From Gracilinema caldarium (GTDB lineage Bacteria > Spirochaetota > Spirochaetia > Treponematales > Breznakiellaceae), in assembly GCF_029265695.1 (NCBI RefSeq), contig NZ_JAJUHW010000004.1:1-64000 (forward strand): 64,000 nt of DNA, in the 5' to 3' direction. Below, in pieces: positions 331 to 57,362 of the stretch (within the stretch, counting starts at the first letter, position 1; every line of letters starts with the position of its first letter). The translations under genes were made by a program, and so were the position numbers. The notes beneath the pieces are model-generated. The model saw nothing but the letters and a program-made list of their open reading frames with translations. It ran no database searches and was not told the DNA's origin.

Positions 331-345
331 TGGTACTATAGCAAT
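331..345 (+). promoter_or_regulatory. Extended -10 promoter abutting the hybrid kinase start
   Basis: TGGTACTAT at 331-339 is an extended -10 box (TGnTACTAT). Only six bases separate it from the ATG at 346, so the predicted transcription start falls on or next to the start codon. No Shine-Dalgarno is present and no clear -35 box is seen. This is one of several such arrangements in the window. Confidence 0.5.
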
Positions 346-2979
346 ATGATTGACCTGCTGCATTATCGAAGGGGGCGAATATTTTTTACTGCCCTTTTTA
401 TACTGACCGCAGTTTTCGAAACAAGTGCTGCTCAGGTAGATGTTATCCCGCTTCAAGACCGCTGGCTATTTAGTTTTCAGGACAGAAATCCTATGACCGT
501 TTTGGTTCCGAGCAATTGGATCTTGTACGGCAAAGCCATTCCTGCCCTTGGCTATGGCCGCTACGAGAGGCTCCTTACTTTGCCGCCCCCTGAAGCTCGG
601 CCGCCCCTCATGCTCCGCATCGGGGAAATTGGAACAGCCTGTGAAGTCTATATTGATGACAAATTAATCGGAGGGCAGGGGACTTACAGTCCCGATCCGG
701 CAGCCCATGTGCCTATGGTGGCTCCCTTGTATCTCGAAATCCCTCCAAACCTGCCCGACCAGGTTAAGCTGACCATTAAAGTATCCAACTATGAGGATAC
801 CAACGGCGGGGGCATATGGGGGCCCATACAGCTCGGCAGCAAAGATGAGCTTTTAGGCCGCCGTGACCGGGCTTTAATTCGGGACGCGGCTATGGCGGGG
901 ATCTTTTTTATCGTGTTCCTCTTTTATCTTATCCTCTACCTGTACCGCAGAAAAAATCAGGCCCTGCTGCTCTTTGCCTTGATATGCCTTGCCTTTGTTT
1001 TTAGACAGCTCGTTACGGGAGAAAAAATCCTTCTACTCCTCTTCCCAAAACTTTCTTGGAATCTATTGGTTCGTATCGAATACCTGAGCCTGTATGTGCT
1101 GGCACCGCTGTATATCCGGTTCTTTTCAGTCCTCTTTGGTCCCTACCGCTGGCCCAAACCTATTACCCTGGGGCTTACAGCTATAGGACTTGGTTCGAAC
1201 CTCGCTGTCTTGTTCTTACCTGTACCATGGTTTATTGGCACCCTCATCGGAATACAAATCTATTGGCTCCTTCTCTTTGCCCTTACCTTGGCGGTGCTGG
1301 AGGGGGCTCGCAGATCCGGCGCAGAGGATGCGGGGCTGTTCCTCCTCAGTTTCAGCATCTTTGTCCTTGGGGGTCTCAATGACCTCTTGCTCACCCGGCT
1401 TTTTCTGCCGACCGTATCGCTTATCACCCTTGCCCAGCTTCTGTTTATCCTCTTTCAGTCCCTGGCGCTGGCCCGGCGTTTTGCCCGGGAATACCGGCGG
1501 ACTAAAAACCTGGAAGAACTGAACAGCCATCTCCAAAAGCTAGATGAAGAGCGGTCCCGGTTTTTTGCCGCCGCAAGCCATGAACTGCGCACCCCGGTAA
1601 GCCTTATCATCACCCCGATAGATGGGATCCAAAAAGGTCTCTATGGCGAAGAGCTCCGGTATGATGCACCGGTTTTTGCCCTTATTCGCAGGAACTGCGA
1701 CCGGCTCAAACATTTGTCGGAACAGCTTTTGAATGTGCTTAAAATTGATACAGGGATGGTGAAGCCCCTTCTGCAGCCCGTAGACATGCAGGTCTATCTC
1801 CAAAAATATATGGCCCTCTTTTCTGCTGAAGCGGAGAAAAAAAAGCTCCGCTTCGAGCTCGAAGCCGCCGAAATGCCCTCTGTGGCCCATACCGATCCGG
1901 TGCTCCTTGAAACGGTGGTGCTCAACTTACTGTCTAACGGGATTAAATTTACCCCCCCAGAGGGGGAATTGCGTATTCGTATAATGCCGCCGGAGAATGG
2001 ATTCATTACGTTTATAGTCCAGGATTCAGGCCCAGGCATCCCCGCAGAACAGCAGGCAATGCTTTTTACCCGCCATGCCGCCGCGTCCCGGGCCCAGGGA
2101 CCGGGAGTAAGCAGTTTCGGTATTGGGCTCCCCCTCTCTGCAGAAATAGTAAACCTTCTCGGTGGTACCATACGGGTCGTAAGCGAAATGGGTAAGGGGA
2201 CGAGTTTTTTGGTTTCCCTGCCCCAGTCGCAGAAATCCCAAGAGTGTCAGAAGGCCCAAAGTTCCCGAGAGATTGCCCCAGATAAACAGATACAGGGCGA
2301 AACAGACAGGAAATTTCATCAACAGACCGTCATTCTCCTGGTCGAAGACGATGAAGATACCAGGAACATGCTGAGTAATGTGCTTTCATCACGCTTTGCG
2401 GTTCACAGCGCTTCATCGGGGGCGGAGGCTCTAGAAAAAATACAGCATGGGCTTGAGCCTGACCTTATCATTTCGGACCTTATCATGTATCCCATGGATG
2501 GCCTTACCTTTCGAGAGCGGCTTCTTGCAGAACCTGGCTTTGCTGCTATTCCCTTTTTATTTATATCCGCTAACCAGGAACCGACGATCCGTGAACGAGC
2601 CCTTGGTACCGGTGCGGTGGACTTTATCCAGAAACCCTTTTATATTGATGAACTGGTGGCCAAAATTGGATCTCTCCGTTTGCTGATGGAACAAAAGCAG
2701 AAACGTATGGAAGAGCGGATTCTGCAGGCCCTTCGCAAGGGCGATTCTCTACCGCGAAAGGATCGGGGCTCCTGGCGAGAGCGTCTGGCGAACATAAAAC
2801 CCACTGAACGGGATTGGGAAGTGGTGGAGTACCTGCTCCAGGGGTTAAGCGACAAAGAAATTGCAAGCCAGCTGGGCTGTTCTGCCCGCACCATTTCTAA
2901 CCGGGTATCCTCTCTACTGAAACGGACGGGCCAGCCAAGCAGGGCCGCCCTTATTGCTTATTTAGGCGGGGCTGAGTAA
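346..2979 (+). CDS. Hybrid sensor kinase: 7TM receptor, HisKA/HATPase, receiver, C-terminal HTH
   Basis: The protein has 877 residues. It starts with a signal/anchor segment (about 11-28), then a beta-rich extracytoplasmic domain (about 40-165) of the 7TMR-DISM type, then seven hydrophobic segments (about 180-395). The kinase core follows: ASHELRTP places the phosphorylated His at residue 412, and the ATP site has DSGPGIP and GIGLPLS. A receiver domain starts near 664 with the phosphoacceptor Asp at 711 (SDLIMYP) and a C-terminal lysine motif (QKPF). The last 65 residues (LSDKEIASQLGCSARTISNR) form a helix-turn-helix of the LuxR kind. All steps from signal sensing to DNA binding are therefore in one chain. 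The ligand is unknown; the extracellular fold suggests a carbohydrate or other small molecule (inference). The gene has no Shine-Dalgarno. Confidence 0.88.
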   Translation: MIDLLHYRRGRIFFTALFILTAVFETSAAQVDVIPLQDRWLFSFQDRNPMTVLVPSNWILYGKAIPALGYGRYERLLTLPPPEARPPLMLRIGEIGTACEVYIDDKLIGGQGTYSPDPAAHVPMVAPLYLEIPPNLPDQVKLTIKVSNYEDTNGGGIWGPIQLGSKDELLGRRDRALIRDAAMAGIFFIVFLFYLILYLYRRKNQALLLFALICLAFVFRQLVTGEKILLLLFPKLSWNLLVRIEYLSLYVLAPLYIRFFSVLFGPYRWPKPITLGLTAIGLGSNLAVLFLPVPWFIGTLIGIQIYWLLLFALTLAVLEGARRSGAEDAGLFLLSFSIFVLGGLNDLLLTRLFLPTVSLITLAQLLFILFQSLALARRFAREYRRTKNLEELNSHLQKLDEERSRFFAAASHELRTPVSLIITPIDGIQKGLYGEELRYDAPVFALIRRNCDRLKHLSEQLLNVLKIDTGMVKPLLQPVDMQVYLQKYMALFSAEAEKKKLRFELEAAEMPSVAHTDPVLLETVVLNLLSNGIKFTPPEGELRIRIMPPENGFITFIVQDSGPGIPAEQQAMLFTRHAAASRAQGPGVSSFGIGLPLSAEIVNLLGGTIRVVSEMGKGTSFLVSLPQSQKSQECQKAQSSREIAPDKQIQGETDRKFHQQTVILLVEDDEDTRNMLSNVLSSRFAVHSASSGAEALEKIQHGLEPDLIISDLIMYPMDGLTFRERLLAEPGFAAIPFLFISANQEPTIRERALGTGAVDFIQKPFYIDELVAKIGSLRLLMEQKQKRMEERILQALRKGDSLPRKDRGSWRERLANIKPTERDWEVVEYLLQGLSDKEIASQLGCSARTISNRVSSLLKRTGQPSRAALIAYLGGAE

Positions 2980-4871: not shown

Positions 4872-4908
4872 TTGTAAATCCCTGGCTTAAACAGCTAGAA
4901 TATACAGT
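4872..4908 (+). promoter_or_regulatory. Promoter placing transcription start at the MFS start codon
   Basis: TTGTAA (4872-4877), an 18-base spacer and TAGAAT (4896-4901) resemble a sigma-70 promoter. The -10 box ends seven bases before the ATG at 4909, and there is no Shine-Dalgarno, so the mRNA is predicted to be leaderless. Confidence 0.5.
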
Positions 4909-7152
4909 ATGACCGGCCAGCTTACGCCCTATCAACTGAAAAAGTTCCGTAAATTATACAATGTTTTTAATGGTTTTAACTCCTTTTCGTTTACTATCCT
5001 GTCGGGCAGTGTCATTACCCTCTATGCCCTGCGCCTTGGCGCCACGTCGACTGTTATCGGTGTCTTAAACGCCTTTGTTTTTACCGCCTTCTTTTTTATG
5101 CCCGTAGGGAAAATCCTGGTGCGCCGTTTGCCTATTGTGCAGGTTTTTGCAACCGCCTGGCTTACCCGGTACCTGGTCATGATACCCCTGGTCATTGCCC
5201 CCTTTTTTGACCGGGTCGGCAGGAATGACATAGCCCTGGGGCTCATGATGATCGGCGTTTTTGCCTTTCATGCAAGCCGCGGTGTTGGTATGATCGGCAA
5301 TAACCCTGTTCTGAACGAAATGGCCGCAGGACCTGATCGGGGTGCCTATATGACCCATATTCAGGTTATTGCCAGTGCGGTTTCCATGTTTACCAGTCTC
5401 GGTATAGCCCTGCTTTTAGGCCGTAAGCCTCCCCTCATGATTTATGCCATCCTGATGTCTATCGGTATTATTTCAGGTGTTATCGGAAGCCTCATGCTGT
5501 ACCGGATACCTGAACCACCAGCAGAAGAGGAAGGCAAACGGGAAGAATTTTTTGCGGTGGTCCGCCGGGCCCTGCGCCGCGCCCCCTTTCGTCGGTTTAT
5601 CATCATTTTTTTAGCCCTCAGCCTTATATCATCTGTGTCCCGGGCCTTTATTGTGGTGTACAGCAGGAGCGTCTACCATCAGGGAGATGGCATGGTCTCT
5701 CTTTATTCCGTTTTTGGCAGTCTGGGGGCTCTAGCTATTGGACTGCTCACCCGCCTTCTTGTGGACCGGGTCGGTGCAAAACCGCTCTATATTACCTATA
5801 CCTTCGCTGCCGTCATTGGCCTTTTGCCAGCCCTCTTGTCTCCCTTTGTAGGTTCAGTCCATCCTTGGGCAATACCGCTTTTTTTGGCCCTATTGTTTTT
5901 TGTGGTCAACTTTGCCTTTGCAGGCACCGAGGGTGTGGCCCAGACCTATTTTTTTGGGCTTATCCGTCCCACGGACATGCTCGACCTGGGGATCCTTTAT
6001 TATATCGTGTATGGTATCGCCGGTGCGGCGGGTTCCTTTGCGGCAGGGCTTTTTTTGGACACCCTGGTTGATGCAGGAATAGCGCCGGTGCTCGCCTTTC
6101 GGATTCTTTTTGCGAGTCTTACCTTGTTATTACTAGTGGTGCTGTTCTGGCAGCGCAAACTGATCCGTCTCGGAGCGCTCCCCCTGCGGGGAGCCCTGGG
6201 GGTGATTTTTTCATTTAGGGACCTGCGGGCCCTGACGCTGCTTGAACGGCTCGAAAAATCCCGCAGTGTCCAGGAAGAACACGAAGTGCTGGAAGCCCTG
6301 CACGATATGCCCAGCACGGTAGCACTTACGGAGCTTTTGGACCGGCTCAGGTCGCCCCGGCTTTCTGTCCGTATCGAAGCCCTTCGGGCTATTGAGGCCC
6401 TGGAAACCCTGAATTCCGAGGCAGAGGATGCCCTTTTGGAGGATGTGCAGAACAACCCCTATACTACTGCCTATATTTCCTGCCGCATTCTTGGAAACCA
6501 TGGCGTACGCCGAGCCATCCCGCTGCTGAGAACCCTTTTTACCGCCGAAGACTACATGCTGGTCGGAGAAGCTATGCTCGCCCTGGCCCGTCTTGGAGAC
6601 ACCGAATCCCGGGTCAAAATAGAGGAATACATCAAAACAACTAAAAACCCCCGCATCCGTATTATGGGGGCTTCAGCTTTAGAGACCTTTGGTTCCTCCG
6701 AATCAATCCAGGTTTTACTAGATCTGCTGCGGGAGGAAAATCCTCCCCCCTATCTTCGGGACGAGGTTGTTCTTTCCATTGCAGGTATTGTCGGTATTAT
6801 GGAGCGTTTTTATCCTCTCCTTGTACAGTATAGGGAAGATCCTGCTCTGGCTAATGCCCTTGCTCAGGACGAAATAGAAGAAATCACTGAAAGTATAGCC
6901 AGCAGAAAACGCAGCAAATATACCCAAAAGATAAAGACCGCCATTAAGGAACTAAAAGAAGCGGCAGGCCGCTTTACCAACGCTTATGATGGACAGCCCC
7001 TTTCCCGTTGGATCCTCACCTATCTCGGTGATACAAAGGATATGGCGGTATATCTCTTTTCCCAGGCTATACTGGAAGATGACCTTGTTGCCCATGACCG
7101 CTTTCGTCTGCTAGTATGTACCTGGGCAGCAAACCGTTTGCTGAATAATTAA
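4909..7152 (+). CDS. MFS transporter fused to a C-terminal HEAT-like repeat domain
   Basis: The protein has 747 residues. Residues 1-415 hold about twelve hydrophobic segments with the two-bundle pattern of the major facilitator superfamily and basic cytoplasmic loops. From about 430 to 700 the sequence is soluble and made of HEAT-like helical pairs (TVALTELLDRLRSPRLSVRI, AIPLLRTLFTAEDYMLVGEA, ESIQVLLDLLREENPPPYLR). Ordinary MFS carriers are about 400 residues long, so the second half is an added domain, probably cytoplasmic and used for protein contacts (inference). The substrate cannot be told from sequence. The start codon lacks a Shine-Dalgarno and lies just after a -10 box. The gene is followed in the same direction by an SH3 lipoprotein gene, without clear evidence of a functional link. 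Confidence 0.85.
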   Translation: MTGQLTPYQLKKFRKLYNVFNGFNSFSFTILSGSVITLYALRLGATSTVIGVLNAFVFTAFFFMPVGKILVRRLPIVQVFATAWLTRYLVMIPLVIAPFFDRVGRNDIALGLMMIGVFAFHASRGVGMIGNNPVLNEMAAGPDRGAYMTHIQVIASAVSMFTSLGIALLLGRKPPLMIYAILMSIGIISGVIGSLMLYRIPEPPAEEEGKREEFFAVVRRALRRAPFRRFIIIFLALSLISSVSRAFIVVYSRSVYHQGDGMVSLYSVFGSLGALAIGLLTRLLVDRVGAKPLYITYTFAAVIGLLPALLSPFVGSVHPWAIPLFLALLFFVVNFAFAGTEGVAQTYFFGLIRPTDMLDLGILYYIVYGIAGAAGSFAAGLFLDTLVDAGIAPVLAFRILFASLTLLLLVVLFWQRKLIRLGALPLRGALGVIFSFRDLRALTLLERLEKSRSVQEEHEVLEALHDMPSTVALTELLDRLRSPRLSVRIEALRAIEALETLNSEAEDALLEDVQNNPYTTAYISCRILGNHGVRRAIPLLRTLFTAEDYMLVGEAMLALARLGDTESRVKIEEYIKTTKNPRIRIMGASALETFGSSESIQVLLDLLREENPPPYLRDEVVLSIAGIVGIMERFYPLLVQYREDPALANALAQDEIEEITESIASRKRSKYTQKIKTAIKELKEAAGRFTNAYDGQPLSRWILTYLGDTKDMAVYLFSQAILEDDLVAHDRFRLLVCTWAANRLLNN

Positions 7153-23588: not shown

Positions 23589-23625
23589 TAAAGGCCTTTA
23601 TAAAATTATCAGATGCAATTACACT
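23589..23625 (+). promoter_or_regulatory. lacI-type gene promoter with palindromic operator
   Basis: TAAAGGCCTTTA (23589-23600) is a perfect 12-bp palindrome that overlaps a -35-like TTTATA (23597-23602). A 17-base spacer leads to TACACT (23620-23625). The layout suits autoregulation by the LacI-family product. Confidence 0.5.
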
Positions 23626-23635
23626 GGAATCTACT

Positions 23636-24703
23636 ATGAGACCAACAATAAAACGTATTGCGGAACTGGCGGGGGTTTCTAAAACCGCTGTTTCTTTTGC
23701 CTTTAATGATCCTTCTAAAATTGCCCGTTCGACCTATGAACGCATTATGGAAATTGCTGAACGGGAAGGCTATGTCCCAGATCCGGTAGCTCGTACCATG
23801 ACCAGCAAACGGGTTGGAGCTATCGGTGTACTTTTACCCCAGGCAATTCAGGATACCTTTCGGAACCCCTATGTTTCGGAGGTGCTGCGGGGTATTGGTA
23901 CGGTGTGTCACCAGGAAGACCTCTTTTTAACCATTTTGCCCCCCATTAAGGGCTTCCTTTCACAAGCAGTGCGGAACGCCGTGGTCGATGGTTTTATCTC
24001 CCTCGGTGTAGAGGCAGCCCCCGATATTGCGGCCCTCATCCGGCAGCGGAACGTGCCCTTTGTAACAATCGACGGGGACGCCGATTCGGGAATTACCAAT
24101 GTGGGCATCGATGATACGGTGGCTGCGGAGACCATGATGAACTATGTTCTTTCGCTGGGGCACCGGGATGTCATCATCCTATCTCTAAAAAGTGATGGCC
24201 CCGGTACAGCAGAAGAACATTCATCCCGTACGGTAGATCGCCGTCTTGCGGGTTTTGAACGGGCCTTGCAGAACCATGGCCTTTCACTGCATAGCCCGAA
24301 TATCCGCGTTGTTCCTGTGGATGTGACCATGGAGTCTGCGGAAGAGGCTTTGCTTCCCCTCTTAAGCCATAAAATCCCCACTGCGATAGTGAGTATGAGC
24401 GATTCTGCGGCTTTTGGCGCCTATGTAGCCTGTAAGCGTCTTGGCCTCACTATTCCTCAGGATATCACTGTTACTGGTATGGATGACGTTCCCTTCTCAG
24501 TCATTACTGAACCGGCTTTGACCACTATCCGTCAGCCGGGGCTTAAAAAGGGATCCTATGCGGTGCGGGCCGTGTTAGACATGATACAGGGGAGGGCAGT
24601 CGCCTCGGTAGTGCTCCCCACCGAACTGGTCATCCGGGGCTCCAGCGCTCCCCCCCGGTCTGTGCCCTTGGCAGTAAAGGCTGTTACCTTAGAAGAGGCT
24701 TAA
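23636..24703 (+). CDS. LacI-family transcription regulator
   Basis: The protein has 355 residues. The N-terminus, TIKRIAELAGVSKTAVSFAF, is the LacI helix-turn-helix, with the hinge helix near PVARTMTSKR. The rest is a periplasmic-binding-like sensor (VGAIGVLLPQ, FVTIDGDAD, AIVSMSDSAAFGAY, TVTGMDDVPFS). It probably controls sugar-use genes; the GH3, GH13 and pyruvate kinase genes are in the window, and a palindrome of LacI type lies at 40673. The inducer is unknown. There is no good Shine-Dalgarno. Confidence 0.93.
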   Translation: MRPTIKRIAELAGVSKTAVSFAFNDPSKIARSTYERIMEIAEREGYVPDPVARTMTSKRVGAIGVLLPQAIQDTFRNPYVSEVLRGIGTVCHQEDLFLTILPPIKGFLSQAVRNAVVDGFISLGVEAAPDIAALIRQRNVPFVTIDGDADSGITNVGIDDTVAAETMMNYVLSLGHRDVIILSLKSDGPGTAEEHSSRTVDRRLAGFERALQNHGLSLHSPNIRVVPVDVTMESAEEALLPLLSHKIPTAIVSMSDSAAFGAYVACKRLGLTIPQDITVTGMDDVPFSVITEPALTTIRQPGLKKGSYAVRAVLDMIQGRAVASVVLPTELVIRGSSAPPRSVPLAVKAVTLEEA

Positions 24704-31711: not shown

Positions 31712-33430
31712 ATGTACGTGTATGCCTATGCCCCCTTTGGGCTTGAAGGAATTATTATCCGTGTTGAGGCGGATATCCGCCGCGGTATCCCCGGTATCGA
31801 TATTTCAGGTCTTGCAGACGGCGCTGTCCGGGAAGCCCGGGAACGGGTGCGGGCGGCGATCCGCAACGGCGGTTTTACCTTTCCCCAGGACAGGATTTTA
31901 GTAAACCTGGCGCCGGCGGGTATCAGGAAAGATGGCCCCGAACTCGATTTACCCATCGCCTTTGCCATCCTTGCCGCTGCGGGGCATATACCGCCTCCGG
32001 AGGGCCTTATGGTACTCGGCGAGCTAGAGCTATCCGGCATGCTGCGGCCCGTACGGGGCGTGGTGGCCGCAACCGCCGCGGGCCTAGCCTCTGGGCTCCG
32101 GGGCTTTATTGTACCCCGGGAAAACCGGGCCGAAGCGGACGTGCTTGCCCCCTCTCGCAGCGCGGCGGTTGCGAGCCTCAGCGAGGCAATTAAGGCCCTC
32201 CAATACTGGCATCTTCACGGCGTTTTCCCAAACGCCGAAGCGCTTGCTAACGACGAATCTCTAGCTTTCACAAAATCCGCAGCATGCACTCCCACGAGTC
32301 TTCGCGCAGATTGCCGCAGCCCTTTTTCCCTCAGCGGCGGCGCCGTGCACCCTTCTGGTCCTGAGACGGTACATAATGAAGTGGGGGATTTTGCCGATGT
32401 ATACGGTCAGGACCGGTATAAACGGGCTTTGGAAATAGCTGCCGCCGGAGGGCACAATGTGCTTGCCTTCGGTCCTCCGGGGGGCGGAAAAACCCTCCTG
32501 GCCCGGCGTATGCCTTCCATTATGCCCGACCTATTGCCCCAGGAGGCTCTGGATGTCCGCAGGCTCTACAGTCTTGCAGGCAGCAGGGATGGGGCTTTTT
32601 GGCAGAACAGAAGTTCCCTTGCTCCTCCTTTCCGCAGCCCCCATCACGGTGCAAGCCTCGAAGGACTCCTCGGGGGAGGCAAAACCGTAAGGCCCGGAGA
32701 AATAAGCCTTGCCCATTTTGGGGTTCTTTTTATGGATGAAGCCCCCGAGTTTCGTTCATCACTATTAAAAGCCCTGCGGGAACCCCTGGAGGACGGGGTA
32801 ATCACCATAGCCCGGGCAGAGGGGTCGGTTAAATTGCCTGCCGAATTCCAGCTTGTTTTGGCCGCTAATCCCTGTCCCTGCGGAAGGCTGGGGCAGGACG
32901 ATGGTTCCGGAACTTCCCTTTGTTTCTGTTCCGATGATGAAATTCATCGGCATTGGCAACGGCTCGGTTCGGCCCTGCTAGACCGCATCGAACTGCGGGT
33001 GCCGGTGCTTCCCCAACCCCACTCTTGGGTAGAGGCCTTCGCAATGCCCCAGTATAAGGATGTACAAGAAAAGAGTGCACGTATTGCAGAACGGGTTTTA
33101 CGGGCAATAGAGATACAACGGGAACGGTTTAGGGGCTCTAGTTGCAGGCGAAACGCCCGAATGCCCCCGGACCTCGTAGAACGTTTCTGCGCAATTCCTG
33201 CACTGGCTATTCGGGAGCTAGAAGCGGGCATAAGAAATGCGGGGCTTTCCAACCGAGCGCTCCAGGGAATTATTAAGGTTGCGAGAACTATCGCTGACCT
33301 GGACGGACGGACAGACATCAATTCCGAAGACTTAACGGAAGCGCTGGCCTTTCGCCGTTCAGGAGATGATCCCTACGATGTACTGAGCCGGTCAAACCAT
33401 TGTTCAGTGCCGGGAATACCCCGCATATAG
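31712..33430 (+). CDS. comM: ComM/YifB-type AAA ATPase (Mg-chelatase-like)
   Basis: The protein has 572 residues. N-terminal Lon-protease-like fold (GIDISGLADGAVREARERVRAA and APAGIRKDG), then DFADVYGQ, Walker A GPPGGGKTLLARRM, Walker B LFMDEAPEF, and the zinc-type CPCG plus CFCSDDE. ComM is a helicase that helps branch migration in natural transformation; YifB is the same family. A linker of about 60 residues (about 165-225) is longer than usual. The 3' end overlaps the convergent PHP gene by 58 bases. No clear Shine-Dalgarno. Confidence 0.9.
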   Translation: MYVYAYAPFGLEGIIIRVEADIRRGIPGIDISGLADGAVREARERVRAAIRNGGFTFPQDRILVNLAPAGIRKDGPELDLPIAFAILAAAGHIPPPEGLMVLGELELSGMLRPVRGVVAATAAGLASGLRGFIVPRENRAEADVLAPSRSAAVASLSEAIKALQYWHLHGVFPNAEALANDESLAFTKSAACTPTSLRADCRSPFSLSGGAVHPSGPETVHNEVGDFADVYGQDRYKRALEIAAAGGHNVLAFGPPGGGKTLLARRMPSIMPDLLPQEALDVRRLYSLAGSRDGAFWQNRSSLAPPFRSPHHGASLEGLLGGGKTVRPGEISLAHFGVLFMDEAPEFRSSLLKALREPLEDGVITIARAEGSVKLPAEFQLVLAANPCPCGRLGQDDGSGTSLCFCSDDEIHRHWQRLGSALLDRIELRVPVLPQPHSWVEAFAMPQYKDVQEKSARIAERVLRAIEIQRERFRGSSCRRNARMPPDLVERFCAIPALAIRELEAGIRNAGLSNRALQGIIKVARTIADLDGRTDINSEDLTEALAFRRSGDDPYDVLSRSNHCSVPGIPRI

Positions 33431-34254
33431 GAAACATCGATGGGCTTTTTGCCCGCCGTGTAACCCAGGTTCCGTTCCTGCCTGGTTGCGCCGTGATAAT
33501 CGCTTCCGGCGGTTACCACCATCCCAAGGCTTTTCCCCAGTTCTTCCAGCCGTTCACATTCCGCCACCCGTGCAAGGGGGTGCCAGGCCTCAAGGCCCGC
33601 TATCCCTTGGTCGTGAAAGTCCCGTATCAATTCGGGCAATTTACCCCATGAGACATAGAGGGATAAGGGATGGGCAAGAATAGGGATAGCCCCCGATGCT
33701 TTGATAAGCCTAATAGCCTGCGTCAGTTCCAGAGATCCTTTGGGTGAATAAAAGGGACGACCCTTGGCAAGGTAGGAATCAAAGGCTTGCTGTTTGTTTT
33801 TTACGATTTTGCGATTAACAAGAAAGGATGCAAAATGGGGCCGCCCGATGACTGCCCCCTCGGAAAGTTCCTTTATCTCATCGTAGTCGGCCTCAATCCC
33901 CATTTCATTCATGCGATCCACGATTTCCCGGTTCCGCTGTTCCCGGAAACGAGCAAGTTCTTCGAGGGCATCTTTAAACTCGTCGGTAGGGTTTTGTAAA
34001 CCAAGGCCCAAAAGATGGAATTCCCCCGGTTCCCAGGCTATTTCTATCTCTACACCAGGTATAAAGAGCACATTTCTCGTTTGTGCTTGAAGTGCGGCTC
34101 TATCTATACCGGAAATCGTATCGTGATCGGTTAGGGCTAGCGCTTTAAGCCCCTTATCGGCAGCCTCGTCTACCAGCTTCTCTGGACTTAAAGTTCCGTC
34201 TGAACAGGTAGAATGGGTATGCAAATCTACAATGAAATTTGGAGTTTTTTCCAT
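33373..34254 (-). CDS. PHP-domain phosphoesterase (YciV/RNase AM-like)
   Basis: The protein has 293 residues. VDLHTHSTCSDGTLSPEKLV, LTDHDT, GVEIEI, GRPHFA, LAHPL and GSDYHG are the ordered metal-binding motifs of the PHP family. E. coli YciV of this type is a 5'-3' exonuclease acting on rRNA ends; the same role here is inference. The gene lacks a Shine-Dalgarno, and a -10 box ends eight bases before its ATG. Confidence 0.85.
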   Translation of the reverse strand: MEKTPNFIVDLHTHSTCSDGTLSPEKLVDEAADKGLKALALTDHDTISGIDRAALQAQTRNVLFIPGVEIEIAWEPGEFHLLGLGLQNPTDEFKDALEELARFREQRNREIVDRMNEMGIEADYDEIKELSEGAVIGRPHFASFLVNRKIVKNKQQAFDSYLAKGRPFYSPKGSLELTQAIRLIKASGAIPILAHPLSLYVSWGKLPELIRDFHDQGIAGLEAWHPLARVAECERLEELGKSLGMVVTAGSDYHGATRQERNLGYTAGKKPIDVSYMRGIPGTEQWFDRLSTS

Positions 34255-34290
34255 ACTGTGCTAGTATAGATATACGGGCTTGTTTGTAAA
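34255..34290 (-). promoter_or_regulatory. Promoter placing transcription start at the PHP start codon
   Basis: On the minus strand TTTACA (34290-34285), 16 bases, then TATACT (34268-34263), eight bases before the ATG. The stretch GTATATCTATACT is identical to that before cheX. Confidence 0.55.
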
Positions 34291-37768: not shown

Positions 37769-37829
37769 ATTTACAAGAGGTAATTATTTCTGTACGGATG
37801 TAAATGACTGATGTATAATTCTATCCGTT

Positions 37830-39242
37830 ATGATTCAGGAAGCCGACGAGTATCGTCTCGTGTTCGAAAATGCCCCACTAGGACTTTTATCTTTTAACCG
37901 AGAAGGTATTATACAAACCTGCAATGACCGCTTTATCAAAATTATGGGGTCATCCCGGGAAAAGCTTATTGGTCTCAATATGCTCCGTCTGCCTGATACA
38001 AAGGTGGTGGAAGCGGTACAACAGGCGCTTGCTGGCGGAACAGGTCGTTACGAAGGGCTCTATCAATCAGTGACTTCCGGTAGAATTATACCGCTTCGTG
38101 GTTTATTTACTTCAAAAAGGCAAGGCGATCAGCCAGTACAGGGTGGTGTGGGAATTATCGAAGACATCACCGAACAATATATGGCTGCCCAAGTACTCAA
38201 GGACAGCGAAGAAAAGTTCAGACTGGTTTTTTCACATTCCAAAGACGGCCTCTTGATTGCTGACCCGGACGGCAGAATAAGTGATTGGAATCATACCTAT
38301 GAAGAGATAACCGGTATTAGTGAATCAGAAGCACGGGGCCGCTCTATTTGGGATATACAATTTGAATCTACCCCACCAGAGAAGCGGAGTCCTGAGTTAT
38401 ACAACATAATAAAACAAAGCCTGCAGCAAGCCCTGGCAACTGGCATTGGCTCCTTTTTAAATAAACCAATCGAAACGGAGCTTGTATCCAAGTCAGGCAA
38501 GCGTATAGCGGTAGAGAATGTGGGATTTTTAATTCCAAGTTCCAGGGGCTTCCTGTTTGGCGACCGTATGACGGACATTAGTGAAAGAAAGGCTGCGCAA
38601 AGCAGAATTCACGCCCTTTTGGAAGAAAAAAGTCTTATTCTTAAGGAAGTGCACCACCGGATCAAAAATAATATGGCCACCGTGGTGAGTCTATTAACCC
38701 TGCAAGCCGGTATGATAAATGACGAGACTGCCCGGGATGCCCTTTTAGCCGCTGCGGGCCGGGTAAACAGCATGATGCTCCTCTATGAAAAACTTTATAC
38801 CGGCTCTATGGTAGGGTCTGCAAAGGCAAGCGACTATATTCCGTCCCTTGTAGATGAGATACTTCAGAATAATGGCTCTTCCACTCAAATTTCTTCAGAA
38901 ATATCAGTAGAAGATGTGGAACTTGATGTAAAAACCCTCCAGACTTTGGGCATCATTATTAATGAATTAGTCACCAATGCGATCAAGTATGCCTTTGTAG
39001 ACCGAGAATCAGGAGTTATTACGGTTTCGCTGAAGAGATCTCAGGATGGTTTCATGTTATATCTTGCTGATAATGGCTGGGGCTTTGATCTGTCGGACGG
39101 GTTTATTCAGGATTCTGATCAAAAACAGGGCAAACATGGGTTTGGTATGACATTGGTGCATCTTTTAGCAGAACAACTGCAGGGTAAACTCCACATTGAA
39201 TCGGAGGGGGGCACCAAAATTACCCTGCAGTTCAGAGTCTAA
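37830..39242 (+). CDS. Soluble PAS-PAS-HisKA_2 sensor kinase
   Basis: The protein has 470 residues. Two PAS domains (about 5-120 and 125-255) are followed by KEVHHRIKNNMATVVSLL, the HisKA_2 His motif, and a HATPase (INELVTNAIKYAF, DNGWGFD, HGFGMTLVHLLAEQL). No membrane segment. It is close in design to the kinase at 2997 but has no receiver. TATAAT (37814-37819) ends ten bases before the ATG and there is no Shine-Dalgarno. Partner regulator unknown. Confidence 0.9.
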   Translation: MIQEADEYRLVFENAPLGLLSFNREGIIQTCNDRFIKIMGSSREKLIGLNMLRLPDTKVVEAVQQALAGGTGRYEGLYQSVTSGRIIPLRGLFTSKRQGDQPVQGGVGIIEDITEQYMAAQVLKDSEEKFRLVFSHSKDGLLIADPDGRISDWNHTYEEITGISESEARGRSIWDIQFESTPPEKRSPELYNIIKQSLQQALATGIGSFLNKPIETELVSKSGKRIAVENVGFLIPSSRGFLFGDRMTDISERKAAQSRIHALLEEKSLILKEVHHRIKNNMATVVSLLTLQAGMINDETARDALLAAAGRVNSMMLLYEKLYTGSMVGSAKASDYIPSLVDEILQNNGSSTQISSEISVEDVELDVKTLQTLGIIINELVTNAIKYAFVDRESGVITVSLKRSQDGFMLYLADNGWGFDLSDGFIQDSDQKQGKHGFGMTLVHLLAEQLQGKLHIESEGGTKITLQFRV

Positions 39243-44158: not shown

Positions 44159-45857
44159 CACCGGAAAAACTACTTTTGCAGTTGGTTTTATTGTATGCTA
44201 AGGATACTTCGGAACATGCGGACATTCTGGTTGCCAATCATCTTTGCAAATTACTGAAAGCTAAAATTACCGCTATTTTTTACAAGGATATTTCAGGCAT
44301 ATGCCATCTCAGACTGTCAGGATCAGATTATTCGATCAAACTATCAAATGCTGACTGGGACCATGTGGTGCGTACCCTAGATACTGCCAATAGTGGTGAA
44401 GCCTATACTTTTGGACCCTGGGAAATACCACAGTTTGGCAGCACAGAAAAATATTGGGTTACCTGTGGTCTATTTAACTCCCGGTCAATTATAAAAGGGT
44501 TTATTGTTCTTGGAAGATCAGACGTCCCCTGGGATGCACTAACAGTAGGATTAATACAAAAGATAAGCCGAACAATCGGAACAATTCTGATAATGAGGAT
44601 GCGGCTCTATATCTCTGAATACGAAAAGAAGAAATTGCTGGATAAACTTACTTTCGAAGAAAAGCGGCTCAGAAATCTTTTTGATGCATCTCCGAATATC
44701 ATTTATACCTGTGATGCTGATGATTATATTGCCAGTGTCAATTTTGCAGGGCTCCGCGCTTTTGGGCTCTCGGCCCCGGACGAAATATTAGGAAAACCTT
44801 TTAGCCAGCTTCTCTACAATCCTGAAGACCGTAAAGTAGGGCTTAAACGGTTATTCACGAACGGTAATTCAGCAACTTATGAAACAATATTAAAGACCTT
44901 TGATGACAGGCTAATATATTGCATGGAATCTATTGCTGTACTTCGGGATGAGCATGGAAAAATACGGGAATTACAGGGTATCATCAATGATATTACTGAA
45001 AGAATAGAAAAAGAACGAGAACTATGGCGTACAAATCTTGAACTATCAGAACTGAACAACAAACTTCAAAAGACGCAGGAAATGATGGTTCAACAAGAAA
45101 AGTTGGCATCTATTGGTCAGCTTGCCGCAGGTGTTGCTCATGAAATTAATAACCCTCTAGGTTTTTTAAAAAGCAACCATGGTATTTTAAATACATATGT
45201 CAATAAGGTTTCCAGCCTGTTGGAGGAACTCAAGGTTACTCCGTTGAATGAATCTCAAGTCGCACTTGTAAATAAACTTTATAAACATTTTGATAGCATT
45301 AAAGAAGTTTTAAATGAGTCTTCTGAAGGATTTGAAAGGATTATCCGGATCGTAAGCGACTTAAAGACTTTCTCCCGCCTTGATCAAGGAGAAGGGTTTG
45401 CCGAATATGATGTCAATGCTGGCATAGAAAGTACATTGGTGGTTGCTTGGAATGAGATAAAATATGTGGCGGATGTAGAAAAAAGACTTGGTTCTATTCC
45501 AAAAATCATGGCTAGGGGAAATGAATTAAACCAGGTTTGGTTGAATATATTAGTAAATGCAGCCCAAGCAATAGAAAGCGCAAAGAAAGAAGAACACGGT
45601 CGTATTGTCATATCAACCTGGGATGAAAAGGATTACATAATGGTCTCCATAAAGGACAATGGTCCTGGAATCCCTGAATCAATCAGAAAAAAATCTTTGA
45701 CCCCTTTTTTACCACCAAAGAGCCAGGTAAAGGAACCGGGCTAGGACTATCGATATCTTACAGCATAGTTGTAGAAACCCATAAAGGCCATATCAACGTA
45801 AATTCTGATATGGGTAAAGGGACCGAGTTCTTAATTGATCTCCCTAAAAATCGTTGA
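44155..45857 (+). pseudogene. PAS sensor histidine kinase interrupted by a one-base frameshift
   Basis: The frame 44155-45744 codes 529 residues: an N-terminal domain (about 1-165, GAF-like at best), a PAS domain (about 170-285), a coiled coil, then HisKA (KLASIGQLAAGVAHEINNPL) and most of a HATPase ([11 protein letters not shown]). Right after that the frame slips. In the -1/+1 frame the text reads [20 protein letters not shown] and ends in a normal tail at 45857. The slip sits in a run of seven A (45687-45693); one more A would restore the whole gene. The lost part contains the G2 box. Possible causes: sequencing error, phase variation, RNA polymerase slippage or real inactivation. Confidence 0.8.
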
Positions 45858-45890
45858 CATTTACCGCTGTGGAAGCTAGACTTTTATATC
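45854..45890 (+). promoter_or_regulatory. Promoter placing transcription start at the GTG of the flavodoxin-like gene
   Basis: TTGACA (45854-45859), 17 bases, TAGACT (45877-45882), then eight bases to the GTG at 45891. No Shine-Dalgarno. Confidence 0.65.
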
Positions 45891-46301
45891 GTGAAACCAA
45901 TAAAGAATGTCCTTATTCTTGTAGATGACTCAGATGTTATTAAGGATGTGGGCAGACAGCTCGCTGTCCATCTTGCTCCCGCGCATGTTGCAATAGTGGA
46001 TGCCGCTGATTTCGCCGCTACGGACATGCTCCCCGCGGATGCCTACCTTTTCGGATGCCAGGAACCGCATCCTGCCCGGTTTAGCGAGGTTGAGCGGGTC
46101 CTTAAGGGGATAAATCTTGCCGGACGACCCTGCGGCCTCTTTACTCTATCCTCAAAAAGTGCTATCGAATATCTTCGCGCTATCACTCAGGATGCGGAAG
46201 TGGCGGTTTTTTCTGAACCCTTGCTTTACGAAGTGCTTCCGCCGGAAAATAGGGCGGCCCGGGTGAAATCCTGGGTTCAATCAGTGCTGGGATGGAGTTA
46301 A
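45891..46301 (+). CDS. Small flavodoxin-like protein
   Basis: The frame opens at GTG; 136 residues. The pattern of alternating strands and helices (NVLILVDDSDVIKDVG, ADAYLFGCQEPHPARF, GRPCGLFTLSS) resembles a short flavodoxin fold, but the FMN phosphate loop is not clear. It may be a non-binding relative. It ends one base before the apt start codon, so the two form a unit. Confidence 0.6.
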   Translation: MKPIKNVLILVDDSDVIKDVGRQLAVHLAPAHVAIVDAADFAATDMLPADAYLFGCQEPHPARFSEVERVLKGINLAGRPCGLFTLSSKSAIEYLRAITQDAEVAVFSEPLLYEVLPPENRAARVKSWVQSVLGWS

Positions 46302-47157: not shown

Positions 47158-47194
47158 TTGACCAGAGCCGGAGCAATCTTTTATAGTTCTATAC
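47158..47194 (+). promoter_or_regulatory. Promoter placing transcription start at the ATG of the 568-aa gene
   Basis: TTGACC (47158-47163), 18 bases, TATAGT (47182-47187), then seven bases to ATG 47195; no Shine-Dalgarno. Confidence 0.65.
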
Positions 47195-48901
47195 ATGCAG
47201 CCTTCTGAAGGGATAGATACCTTTGAACGATTAGCTTCCCGTCTTTCTATGGAAGAGCGCCAAGCCCTCCTTTCCAAACTTTCCAGCTATGCAGTGCTTT
47301 CTAAAGAAGTGCTATTTCATGAAGAAGAAGTTCCTCCCAAGGTTGATGTAGAACGGCAATACAAAGAAATTCCCTGGTATTATAAGCTCTACCTCACTAT
47401 TCTTAGTTTTTTCAAAGGGAAATCGCCCCTTAAACTCTATGAAGATAGGCTTATTTCATCCCTCGGTGCTATGATCGAAAGCCGCGCGCCGGGTTTATTC
47501 GACCACCGGCGCAATATCTTACTTTCTGGCTTTATGGAGGAAATTGGTTCCCTGAAAGAGGCCGCCAGGTTTTTTTATGAGGCTCTTGATATTAGTCTTA
47601 ACCGGGATAAGGGTGCTTTTTTCTCATTTCTTGCTTCCCTTGAGCTAGATTATGTACATCGCAGACTCCTTAATGAGACCGATCCCGAAGAAATAGCCAA
47701 AGGCAATCCTCAGCTTACCGAAACGGATGTTAGGAATATCGCGAACCGCACATTGGACAGCGTTTTTCAGTCTATCAATGAAGACGAACGGCGGATCATG
47801 TACCGGAACGCCCGGTCTCTTCAATGCTTAAAAGAACTCTCCTCCTTTCTTTTTGATCGCCTATTGTCAAATTTTGCGCGGGATTCAAGCAATAAAGGTC
47901 TTACCGCACCTGCATATTTAGCTATGGATCAACTCAGTGCTTTGAACAATATTTTGTACTCGCTGCAGGATCCGCCTTCGATGGCTCTTCTGGAAACTTT
48001 GTTTATCTTTCTCCTCCAAGAACGAAACACCGAACCCAAAATTGACCTTGCTCTTGAATTAAAAACCCTCTTATCCCGAGCCGAGGAAGCCTTGGGAAGA
48101 ATTCGACAGTTTAACAAGCGTATCCCCCTTACCGCCATTATTCGCTGTTCCAGCCGAAACCTCTCTTATTTTCCCCAAAGTATTACCGGCGGCGAAGACT
48201 GGTTTGCCGTATATCGGGATTATTGGAAAAAACAAGTAGAAGACCGCTGTAACCGCTATATTCAAGAGCAGCGCCGCCAAGAACTGGTGGAGGAACTGCG
48301 GGATTTTTTTAAGGGAAATCCGATAAAATCGCTCCAGTATGTAGCAGGTATCAATAATCCGGATGGTATCCCTATCCATGGAGCCTTTAGCCTAGCTTTT
48401 TTGTTTACTTTTTACAACGTATTATTTGTCGAAGAAATAAACCGGGCATTAAAACCCATTTTAATTGACGGAGAATTTTACAAAAAAGAAAATCGTACCG
48501 AATTTACTGAGGCTTATAATGAGCTTCTTCAGCTGGGAGAAACAATACGGGCTTTTGATCAAAAATTATCACCCACCGGGGACCTCGGAAAGCGTTATGA
48601 TATTGCCCGGCAAGAAATTACAGCCCTTTCAGTAAAGCGACGAAAAATACAGGTGATCGAGACGGAAGCTTCTGATGAAGCTTCTGAAATTATTAATCGG
48701 GCAATGAAGGCCCTTAAGTCCCTTTCTCTGGTGCTCGAAGGGATTCTAAAGGGAGAAGCCGGCGGCCGCTATGATTCACTGATTAATTTAGGCAGTCTTG
48801 CCGGTAAAAGCGGGTCGTACCTGGTGCTTCTCAAAGGTACCCGGGAAAAGCTGGAAAAATCTCTGAGCTTACTGAACGAGATTGAAAAAGCAGGGATTTA
48901 A
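47195..48901 (+). CDS. Conserved-looking protein of unknown function, helical
   Basis: The protein has 568 residues and is not recognised by me. It has no signal peptide. A short hydrophobic stretch (YKLYLTILSFF, about 63-73) may touch the membrane. The rest is charged and helical, with many Leu heptad-like stretches and a terminal coiled segment (LEKSLSLLNEIEKAG). Neighbours are tRNA genes upstream and a PgeF-like gene 15 bases downstream. Possibly a spirochaete-specific family (inference). It looks leaderless. Confidence 0.75.
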   Translation: MQPSEGIDTFERLASRLSMEERQALLSKLSSYAVLSKEVLFHEEEVPPKVDVERQYKEIPWYYKLYLTILSFFKGKSPLKLYEDRLISSLGAMIESRAPGLFDHRRNILLSGFMEEIGSLKEAARFFYEALDISLNRDKGAFFSFLASLELDYVHRRLLNETDPEEIAKGNPQLTETDVRNIANRTLDSVFQSINEDERRIMYRNARSLQCLKELSSFLFDRLLSNFARDSSNKGLTAPAYLAMDQLSALNNILYSLQDPPSMALLETLFIFLLQERNTEPKIDLALELKTLLSRAEEALGRIRQFNKRIPLTAIIRCSSRNLSYFPQSITGGEDWFAVYRDYWKKQVEDRCNRYIQEQRRQELVEELRDFFKGNPIKSLQYVAGINNPDGIPIHGAFSLAFLFTFYNVLFVEEINRALKPILIDGEFYKKENRTEFTEAYNELLQLGETIRAFDQKLSPTGDLGKRYDIARQEITALSVKRRKIQVIETEASDEASEIINRAMKALKSLSLVLEGILKGEAGGRYDSLINLGSLAGKSGSYLVLLKGTREKLEKSLSLLNEIEKAGI

Positions 48902-52534: not shown

Positions 52535-52552
52535 TTTCACGGACTGGGATAG

Positions 52553-53623
<1,071 letters not shown>

Positions 53624-56817: not shown

Positions 56818-57327
56818 TTATATCAATTTGCTATTTTTAATGGCAAAAATGCAAGTAAAATATCCAAAATCACCAGAAACATCAAAACAGTAGTCTTTGT
56901 CAGACTCGGGGAGCATGGCTTGCACTCCAGAACCGCTTAAGATTATAGGAGGGGTTATCATGCAGTCAACTCCCTTTTGAGATAAAAGGTTTACAAAAGC
57001 TCCTCCAATCTGATTTGACAACTCAGCAATGGCTTCTTTATTGAACTGATGACTTTGTTCTGCATCCATGCCAAGATGAGAGACAAGCTGTGAAACAAAA
57101 GAATCGGAAATGGTAGGTGGAAACGCTAATATCAATTGGCCCTTAAGTGTTCCAACAAGACCAATCAGCGCGAGAATATCATTCTTTCCCACATTTTGGG
57201 CGGCCTTGTGCCTATCTGCTTCTTTAACAGCCTTTTGGCCCTGTTCAATGACGATATTAGAAAAACCGATTTCCATGAAAATGTCTTTACATGCTTTCAT
57301 CAATAAAGCGTTTATTTGTGTATCCAC
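56818..57327 (-). CDS. cheX: CheX-family chemotaxis phosphatase
   Basis: The frame opens at GTG 57327; 169 residues. AIAELSNQIGGAFVNLLSQKG carries the ExxN-type catalytic motif, and VGTLKGQLILAFPP matches the CheC/CheX/FliY fold. CheX dephosphorylates CheY-P and is the chemotaxis phosphatase of spirochaetes. No other che gene is in the window. No Shine-Dalgarno; see the promoter at 57334-57362. Confidence 0.88.
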   Translation of the reverse strand: MDTQINALLMKACKDIFMEIGFSNIVIEQGQKAVKEADRHKAAQNVGKNDILALIGLVGTLKGQLILAFPPTISDSFVSQLVSHLGMDAEQSHQFNKEAIAELSNQIGGAFVNLLSQKGVDCMITPPIILSGSGVQAMLPESDKDYCFDVSGDFGYFTCIFAIKNSKLI

Positions 57328-57362
57328 AGAATGAGTATAGATATACTTGGCTCAGTCGTCAA
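57328..57362 (-). promoter_or_regulatory. Promoter placing transcription start at the cheX GTG
   Basis: On the minus strand TTGACG (57362-57357), 17 bases, TATACT (57339-57334), then six bases (CATTCT) to the GTG. This is the clearest leaderless arrangement in the window. Confidence 0.7.

Follow-up and report, generated by a model that had tools for sequence, protein, structure and literature searches.

Predicted leaderless genes with sigma70-type promoters in the treponeme Gracilinema caldarium and their conservation among relatives

Six genes in the window analysed here, a 64,000-nucleotide stretch of Gracilinema caldarium DNA (contig NZ_JAJUHW010000004.1, positions 1 to 64,000), are predicted to be leaderless genes of the sigma70 type, the transcripts of which would start at the start codon, and we put the probability of this reading at about 0.92. 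It had been proposed earlier from the DNA letters alone. Transcription from the start codon is the best reading because four lines of evidence agree: an offset-specific genome-wide scan, the accompanying −35 boxes, a pyrimidine at −1, and conservation of the arrangement in the orthologs of all six genes.

All eight box and gap arrangements named in the original prediction, six leaderless and two near-leaderless, were found base for base. These are TTGACC-18-TATAGT-7-ATG at 47195, TACTAT-6-ATG at 346, TAGAAT-7-ATG at 4909, TATACT-8-ATG at 34254 (minus strand), TAGACT-8-GTG at 45891 (in full, TTGACA-17-TAGACT-8-GTG), TATACT-6-GTG at 57327 (minus strand; in full, TTGACG-17-TATACT-6-GTG), and gaps of 10 bases behind TATAAT at 37830 and TACACT at 23636. 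A Shine-Dalgarno (SD) core at 3–13 bases before the start is absent at all eight loci, as had been claimed. A −35 box at a spacing of 16–18 bases is clear at 47195, 45891, and 57327 and weaker at 34254 and at 4909, where TTGTAA lies 18 bases upstream of the −10, while the gene at 346 has no −35 box and a TGG preceding its −10 constitutes an extended −10. The predicted features are as follows.

334..339, plus strand: −10 box TACTAT with TGG in front (extended −10), 6 bases 5′ of the ATG
346..2979, plus strand: 7TMR-DISM hybrid histidine kinase gene, predicted leaderless
4872..4877, plus strand: −35 box TTGTAA of the 4909 gene, kept in the relatives G001, G002, and G003
4896..4901, plus strand: −10 box TAGAAT, 7 bases 5′ of the ATG (TACAAT-7-ATG in G001 and G003)
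4909..7152, plus strand: gene of an MFS transporter with HEAT repeats, predicted leaderless
23620..23625, plus strand: −10 box TACACT, 10 bases 5′ of the LacI-family ATG at 23636, probable leader of about 2–4 nt
33373..34254, minus strand: PHP-domain phosphoesterase gene, predicted leaderless
34263..34268, minus strand: −10 box TATACT, 8 bases 5′ of the ATG (TATACTagcacagtATG identical in G001–G003)
34285..34290, minus strand: −35 box TTTACA of the 34254 gene, spacer 16
37814..37819, plus strand: −10 box TATAAT, 10 bases 5′ of the PAS histidine kinase ATG at 37830, probable leader of about 2–4 nt
45854..45859, plus strand: −35 box TTGACA of the 45891 gene (TTGACA in 9/9 orthologs)
45877..45882, plus strand: −10 box TAGACT, 8 bases 5′ of the GTG
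45891..46301, plus strand: small receiver-like gene with GTG start, predicted leaderless (receiver reading from the N-terminal sequence only; no match to the product in a Pfam search)
47158..47163, plus strand: −35 box TTGACC of the 47195 (DUF5312) gene, part of its predicted leaderless promoter
47182..47187, plus strand: −10 box TATAGT, ending 7 bases 5′ of the ATG
47195..48901, plus strand: DUF5312 protein gene with ATG start, predicted leaderless (PF17239, E 9e-186)
56818..57327, minus strand: CheX-like chemotaxis phosphatase gene with GTG start, predicted leaderless
57334..57339, minus strand: −10 box TATACT, 6 bases 5′ of the GTG
57357..57362, minus strand: −35 box TTGACG of the 57327 gene

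Elsewhere in the window, a G+C-rich hairpin (GGCGCGCCCCTTGGGCGCGCC) was observed at 52540–52621, just 5′ of the gene at 52577/52622 and within a stretch of about 700 bases in which the gene caller placed no gene.

The arrangement was then sought in the rest of the assembly, which holds 3,040,264 bases in 88 contigs and in which a search for a 16S rRNA gene found none, as is common in metagenome bins. The scan sample of 0.99 Mb consisted of the window and stretches of 60 contigs, and starts were set by a purpose-written gene caller that scores only hexamer coding potential, which keeps promoters and SD sites from influencing the called starts. Among the 793 usable genes, 201 without and 139 with an SD site were first in their unit. 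The enrichment at gaps of 6–8 bases that the original prediction implied was borne out: TANNNT stands at these gaps in 55 of the 201 first genes without SD, whereas 500 dinucleotide shuffles gave a mean of 16.8 (standard deviation 3.8, maximum 29). The counts at gaps 6, 7, and 8 were 32, 15, and 8, against approximately 4.6 per offset elsewhere, and the peak is confined to one offset, with 32 genes at gap 6 versus 3 at gap 5. In the first genes with SD, the corresponding counts were 1, 2, and 1 (4 of 139 in total), and their boxes mostly lie more than 17 bases away. The further claim that the absence of SD is specific to these genes needs qualification. Lack of SD is not rare here, the SD test being failed by about 59% of first genes and by 51% of all genes, and the information therefore lies in the spacing of the box and not in the missing SD.

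When alternative starts of near-equal score were allowed, a strong promoter (score of 9 or more of 12) was found at gaps 6–8 in 54 of 827 genes, versus 4–10 at offsets where neither class is expected. The leaderless-type excess amounts to 41 of 793 genes (5.2%), and to as much as about 6% by the alternative-start method; extrapolated, the class would comprise about 5–6% of genes, perhaps 130–180 per 3.04 Mb genome. A functional bias toward regulators only, suggested by the window, is unsupported, because the wider candidate list, with SecA, a class II aminoacyl-tRNA synthetase, CheR, a signal peptidase, a SpoU methylase, and an isoamylase among its members, includes housekeeping genes such as SecA in addition to regulators.

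Two further features, neither of which served as a selection criterion, accompany the boxes. A −35 box with at least four of six matches to TTGACA was found at spacings of 16–18 in 25 of the 55 candidates, compared with 3, 6, and 11 of 55 at spacings of 12–14, 20–22, and 24–26, respectively, and with 15 of 86 where TANNNT stands at other gaps. The base at −1 is a pyrimidine in 30 of 32 gap-6 genes of the host genome and in 54 of 61 such genes from six genomes, compared with 229 of 342 SD first genes; for the whole class the proportion is 89/107 (P = 0.001 versus SD genes), and the signal is weak in G031 (6/11). By standard −10 geometry, a gap of 6 places +1 on the A of the ATG.

At all six named loci, the arrangement is conserved in orthologs relative to the start codon, while the spacer has diverged. 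The DUF5312 gene is present in nearly all relatives searched, as would fit a treponeme, and the closest matches to its protein come from Treponema sp. M74 (98–100% identity) and further Treponema assemblies. A good promoter was found 5–9 bases before the next in-frame start in 18 of 29 scorable family orthologs; among the good promoters of family orthologs, TTGACC occurs in 16/21 and TATAGT in 14/21. The arrangement TTGACC-17/18-TATAGT-6/7-ATG recurs across the family at this gene with spacers that are unrelated between genera, and TTGCC-17-TANNNT-6-ATG is seen in members of other families (L129, L133, and L135). At 45891, TTGACA together with TAGACT, TAAACT, or TAGAAT at gaps of 6–8 was found in nine of nine orthologs down to 35% identity, eight of which start with GTG and one with ATG (the window's own copy being one of the nine). 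Similarly, the CheX-like gene at 57327 has TTGAC and TATACT or TATAAT at gaps of 6–7 in all five orthologs, one of them from another family. The footprint at 34254 is tight only within the genus; outside it, several orthologs carry TATACT, TACAAT, TAAAAT, or TATAGT at gaps of 6–8, and nothing recognisable was found upstream of the others. The promoter of 4909 is conserved within the genus and in some other members of the family, and for 346, TATGGTACTAT-6-ATG is likewise present, in frame, at the G001 ortholog (61% identity).

The peak itself recurs in G031, from another genus of the same family (11 vs 1.6), and in G041, from another family (13 vs 1.2), and is weaker in G001, of the same genus (15 vs 6.3), G037 (9 vs 3.7), and G039 (4 vs 0.3). 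Across 40 whole genomes, the pattern TTGAC-17/18-TATANT-6/7-ATG had 228 matches, versus 5 for the reversed pattern and 59 with the gap shifted to 12–13, several of the latter being promoters from the main count whose ATG is followed six bases later by another. Among the relatives, G011 stands far ahead in leaderless-type promoters, with 35 matches. Many promoters there are of one flavour (TTGACT, a C-rich spacer, GCTATACT, and CCCC followed by ATG), and one exact promoter (TTGACAAGCAGTTGCTATTATAGTATAGTGTCTATATG) is present in four copies, probably on a mobile element.

Two alternatives to this reading were considered. TANNNT is short, and A+T-rich sequence 5′ of start codons could produce it by chance in about 14–17 of the 201 first genes without SD at gaps 6–8; yet 55 were observed, in a single-offset peak that is missing from the SD genes and from E. 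coli and with −35 boxes at the correct distance, so that for the class as a whole chance is refuted as an explanation (we consider it extremely improbable), while still accounting for a minority of the individual candidates; roughly one quarter to one third of the 55 are expected by chance. In the E. coli control (K-12, 200 kb, same pipeline), there were 0 boxes at gaps 6–8 with 2.3 expected, and the caller reproduced only 60 of 86 annotated starts, so its errors would dilute the peak, not create it, although single candidates beyond the window can be wrong. The same imperfection of the caller lends something to the other alternative, that the starts are miscalled and the true ones lie downstream behind a normal leader and SD, the promoter merely seeming adjacent: for 57327 the caller's own choice was the ATG at 57300, and the alignment of the G001 ortholog of 346 opens only at residue 32. 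Against this, none of the eight named loci has an in-frame ATG, GTG, or TTG upstream before a stop, and orthologs of five of the six named genes align from close to the N terminus onward, by which their start codons are essentially fixed. For 47195, 34254, 45891, 57327, and 4909, homology opens within residues 1–9 with no other start upstream of the conserved part, and the −10 holds its position relative to that start codon even where the spacer of the ortholog is unrelated. Miscalled starts are therefore a very unlikely explanation.

A less distant alternative, which we nevertheless regard as unlikely, is that these transcripts carry very short leaders of 2–5 bases, with +1 on a purine 5′ of the ATG, as the gaps of 8–10 bases at 34254, 45891, 37830, and 23636 would allow. 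The modal gap of 6, however, puts +1 on the A of the ATG, next to the pyrimidine found at −1 in nearly all such host genes, and leaders of 2–5 bases are too short for an SD site, so that the ribosome would still meet a near-leaderless mRNA. For 37830 and 23636, which had been described as coming close to the leaderless spacing, the 10-base gap stands, but the loci are better read as having leaders of 2–4 bases. The box of 37830 recurs as TATACT-10 in G003 and TATACT-7 in G001, and that of 23636 as TAAACT-9 in both; kept at 7–10 and 9–10 bases, respectively, the boxes therefore probably give few-base leaders.

For the six leaderless genes, we suppose that RNA polymerase would bind the −35/−10 pair with the −10 hexamer at about −12 to −7, and that transcription would start at the initial nucleotide of the ATG or GTG codon or one to two bases 5′ of it. 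That transcription starts on the start codon is strongly implied by sequence, from which we infer the actual 5′ ends. The mRNA would then have neither a 5′ leader nor an SD site, and initiation would presumably follow the leaderless route known from established leaderless mRNAs, with the 70S ribosome and fMet-tRNA on the 5′-terminal start codon, so that the choice of start would be set by the promoter and not by SD pairing. The conserved leaderless GTG starts and the TTGACC/TATAGT words suggest tuning of output at the level of the promoter. The non-consensus TTGACC/TATAGT kept at the DUF5312 gene gives the impression of selection for intermediate promoter strength, and the conserved GTG behind a near-consensus promoter at 45891 suggests an output set by promoter strength together with a weak start.

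Divergent gene pairs in the host genome pile up at 55–69 bp (17 of 98, five of them at exactly 63). In the 22 host pairs that lie 40–75 bp apart, a leaderless-type promoter was found on 20 of 44 sides, versus 3.4 in shuffles, and on both sides in 6 pairs, versus 0.15; the samples of G001 and G041 hold only 0–1 divergent pairs at this distance. Three pairs 63–67 bp apart have promoters standing back to back, mostly leaderless.

L060, 2234/2298: divergent pair signal peptidase / PEGA-FGE protein, −35 boxes sharing TGACA
L101, 4458/4524: divergent pair BFN-domain protein / CheR, −35 boxes sharing TGACA
L053, 14008/14076: divergent pair SecA / next gene, −35 boxes sharing TGACA, plus-strand gap of 9 bases

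Their spacing follows 2 × (gap + 6 + 17) + 5, with the gap taken per side, and the arrangement at L060 is conserved in G001, G002, and G003 as well as in G018 and G010, which represent two other genera. We propose tentatively, at a little less than even odds, that they form a minimal bidirectional module, in which a TTGACAA core, which gives TTGACA on one strand and TTGTCA on the opposite strand, would be flanked by 17-base spacers, −10 boxes, and about 6 bases on each side, in a layout maintained by selection. As polymerase would occupy the core in one orientation at a time, expression of one gene would compete with that of the other. Divergent bacterial promoters built on −10 symmetry likewise draw two promoters from one short region; here, unlike in those, the promoters stand back to back on a common −35 core with starts about 63 bp apart. 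No description of a compact divergent leaderless layout was found in the titles and abstracts searched, and such pairs of about 63 bp sharing one −35 core are, as far as found, new. In another divergent region (L063, 13205–13274), we observed an operator-like inverted repeat, TTGACAGAGGCTCTGTCAA, that overlaps the −35 on both strands.

The results point to a defined, conserved leaderless class in an order of spirochaetes that includes cultured members. For annotation, the class can aid in start-codon choice, as SD-based callers will misplace some leaderless starts, and matched sets of leaderless and SD-led orthologs would permit tests of leaderless initiation outside actinobacteria and archaea.

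Leaderless promoters of Mycobacterium usually have a weak −35, whereas the −35 here is often a good TTGAC. The two share the adjacency of −10 and start codon as well as GTG starts, a −10 directly upstream of ATG or GTG and the acceptance of GTG being documented for Mycobacterium (PMC3898074, PMC4633059), whose class is much larger. Closer to the host, leaderless genes were predicted from TA-like signals in 6 of 18 spirochaete genomes, at a mean of 3.9% of genes and a range of 1.8–6.9% (Zheng et al., 2011, PMC3160421), within which the 5–6% of the host falls. That class also has TANNNT about 12 bases upstream of a start without SD; it is counted per phylum, and the main text names no treponeme, whereas the present class is defined gene by gene with −35, −1 pyrimidine, and ortholog footprints. 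In Leptospira interrogans, dRNA-seq measured about 440 transcripts whose 5′ ends lie no more than 10 bases from the start codon, and the study found no sigma70-type motif (PMC5243855); the genes described here are predicted only and have −35/−10 boxes close to consensus. Leaderless transcripts are also said to be frequent in Borrelia, a spirochaete of a different lineage, in a remark in a ribosome structure paper (PMC10618245). In the collection of papers searched, no report of leaderless mRNAs in treponemes was found. The class that the original prediction called notable is supported, but the surprise is smaller than claimed because leaderless mRNAs have already been reported in spirochaetes (PMC5243855, PMC10618245, PMC3160421). 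Leaderless genes in other spirochaetes are thus already known, and what is added here is their gene-by-gene conservation in treponemes, together with the compact divergent pairs.
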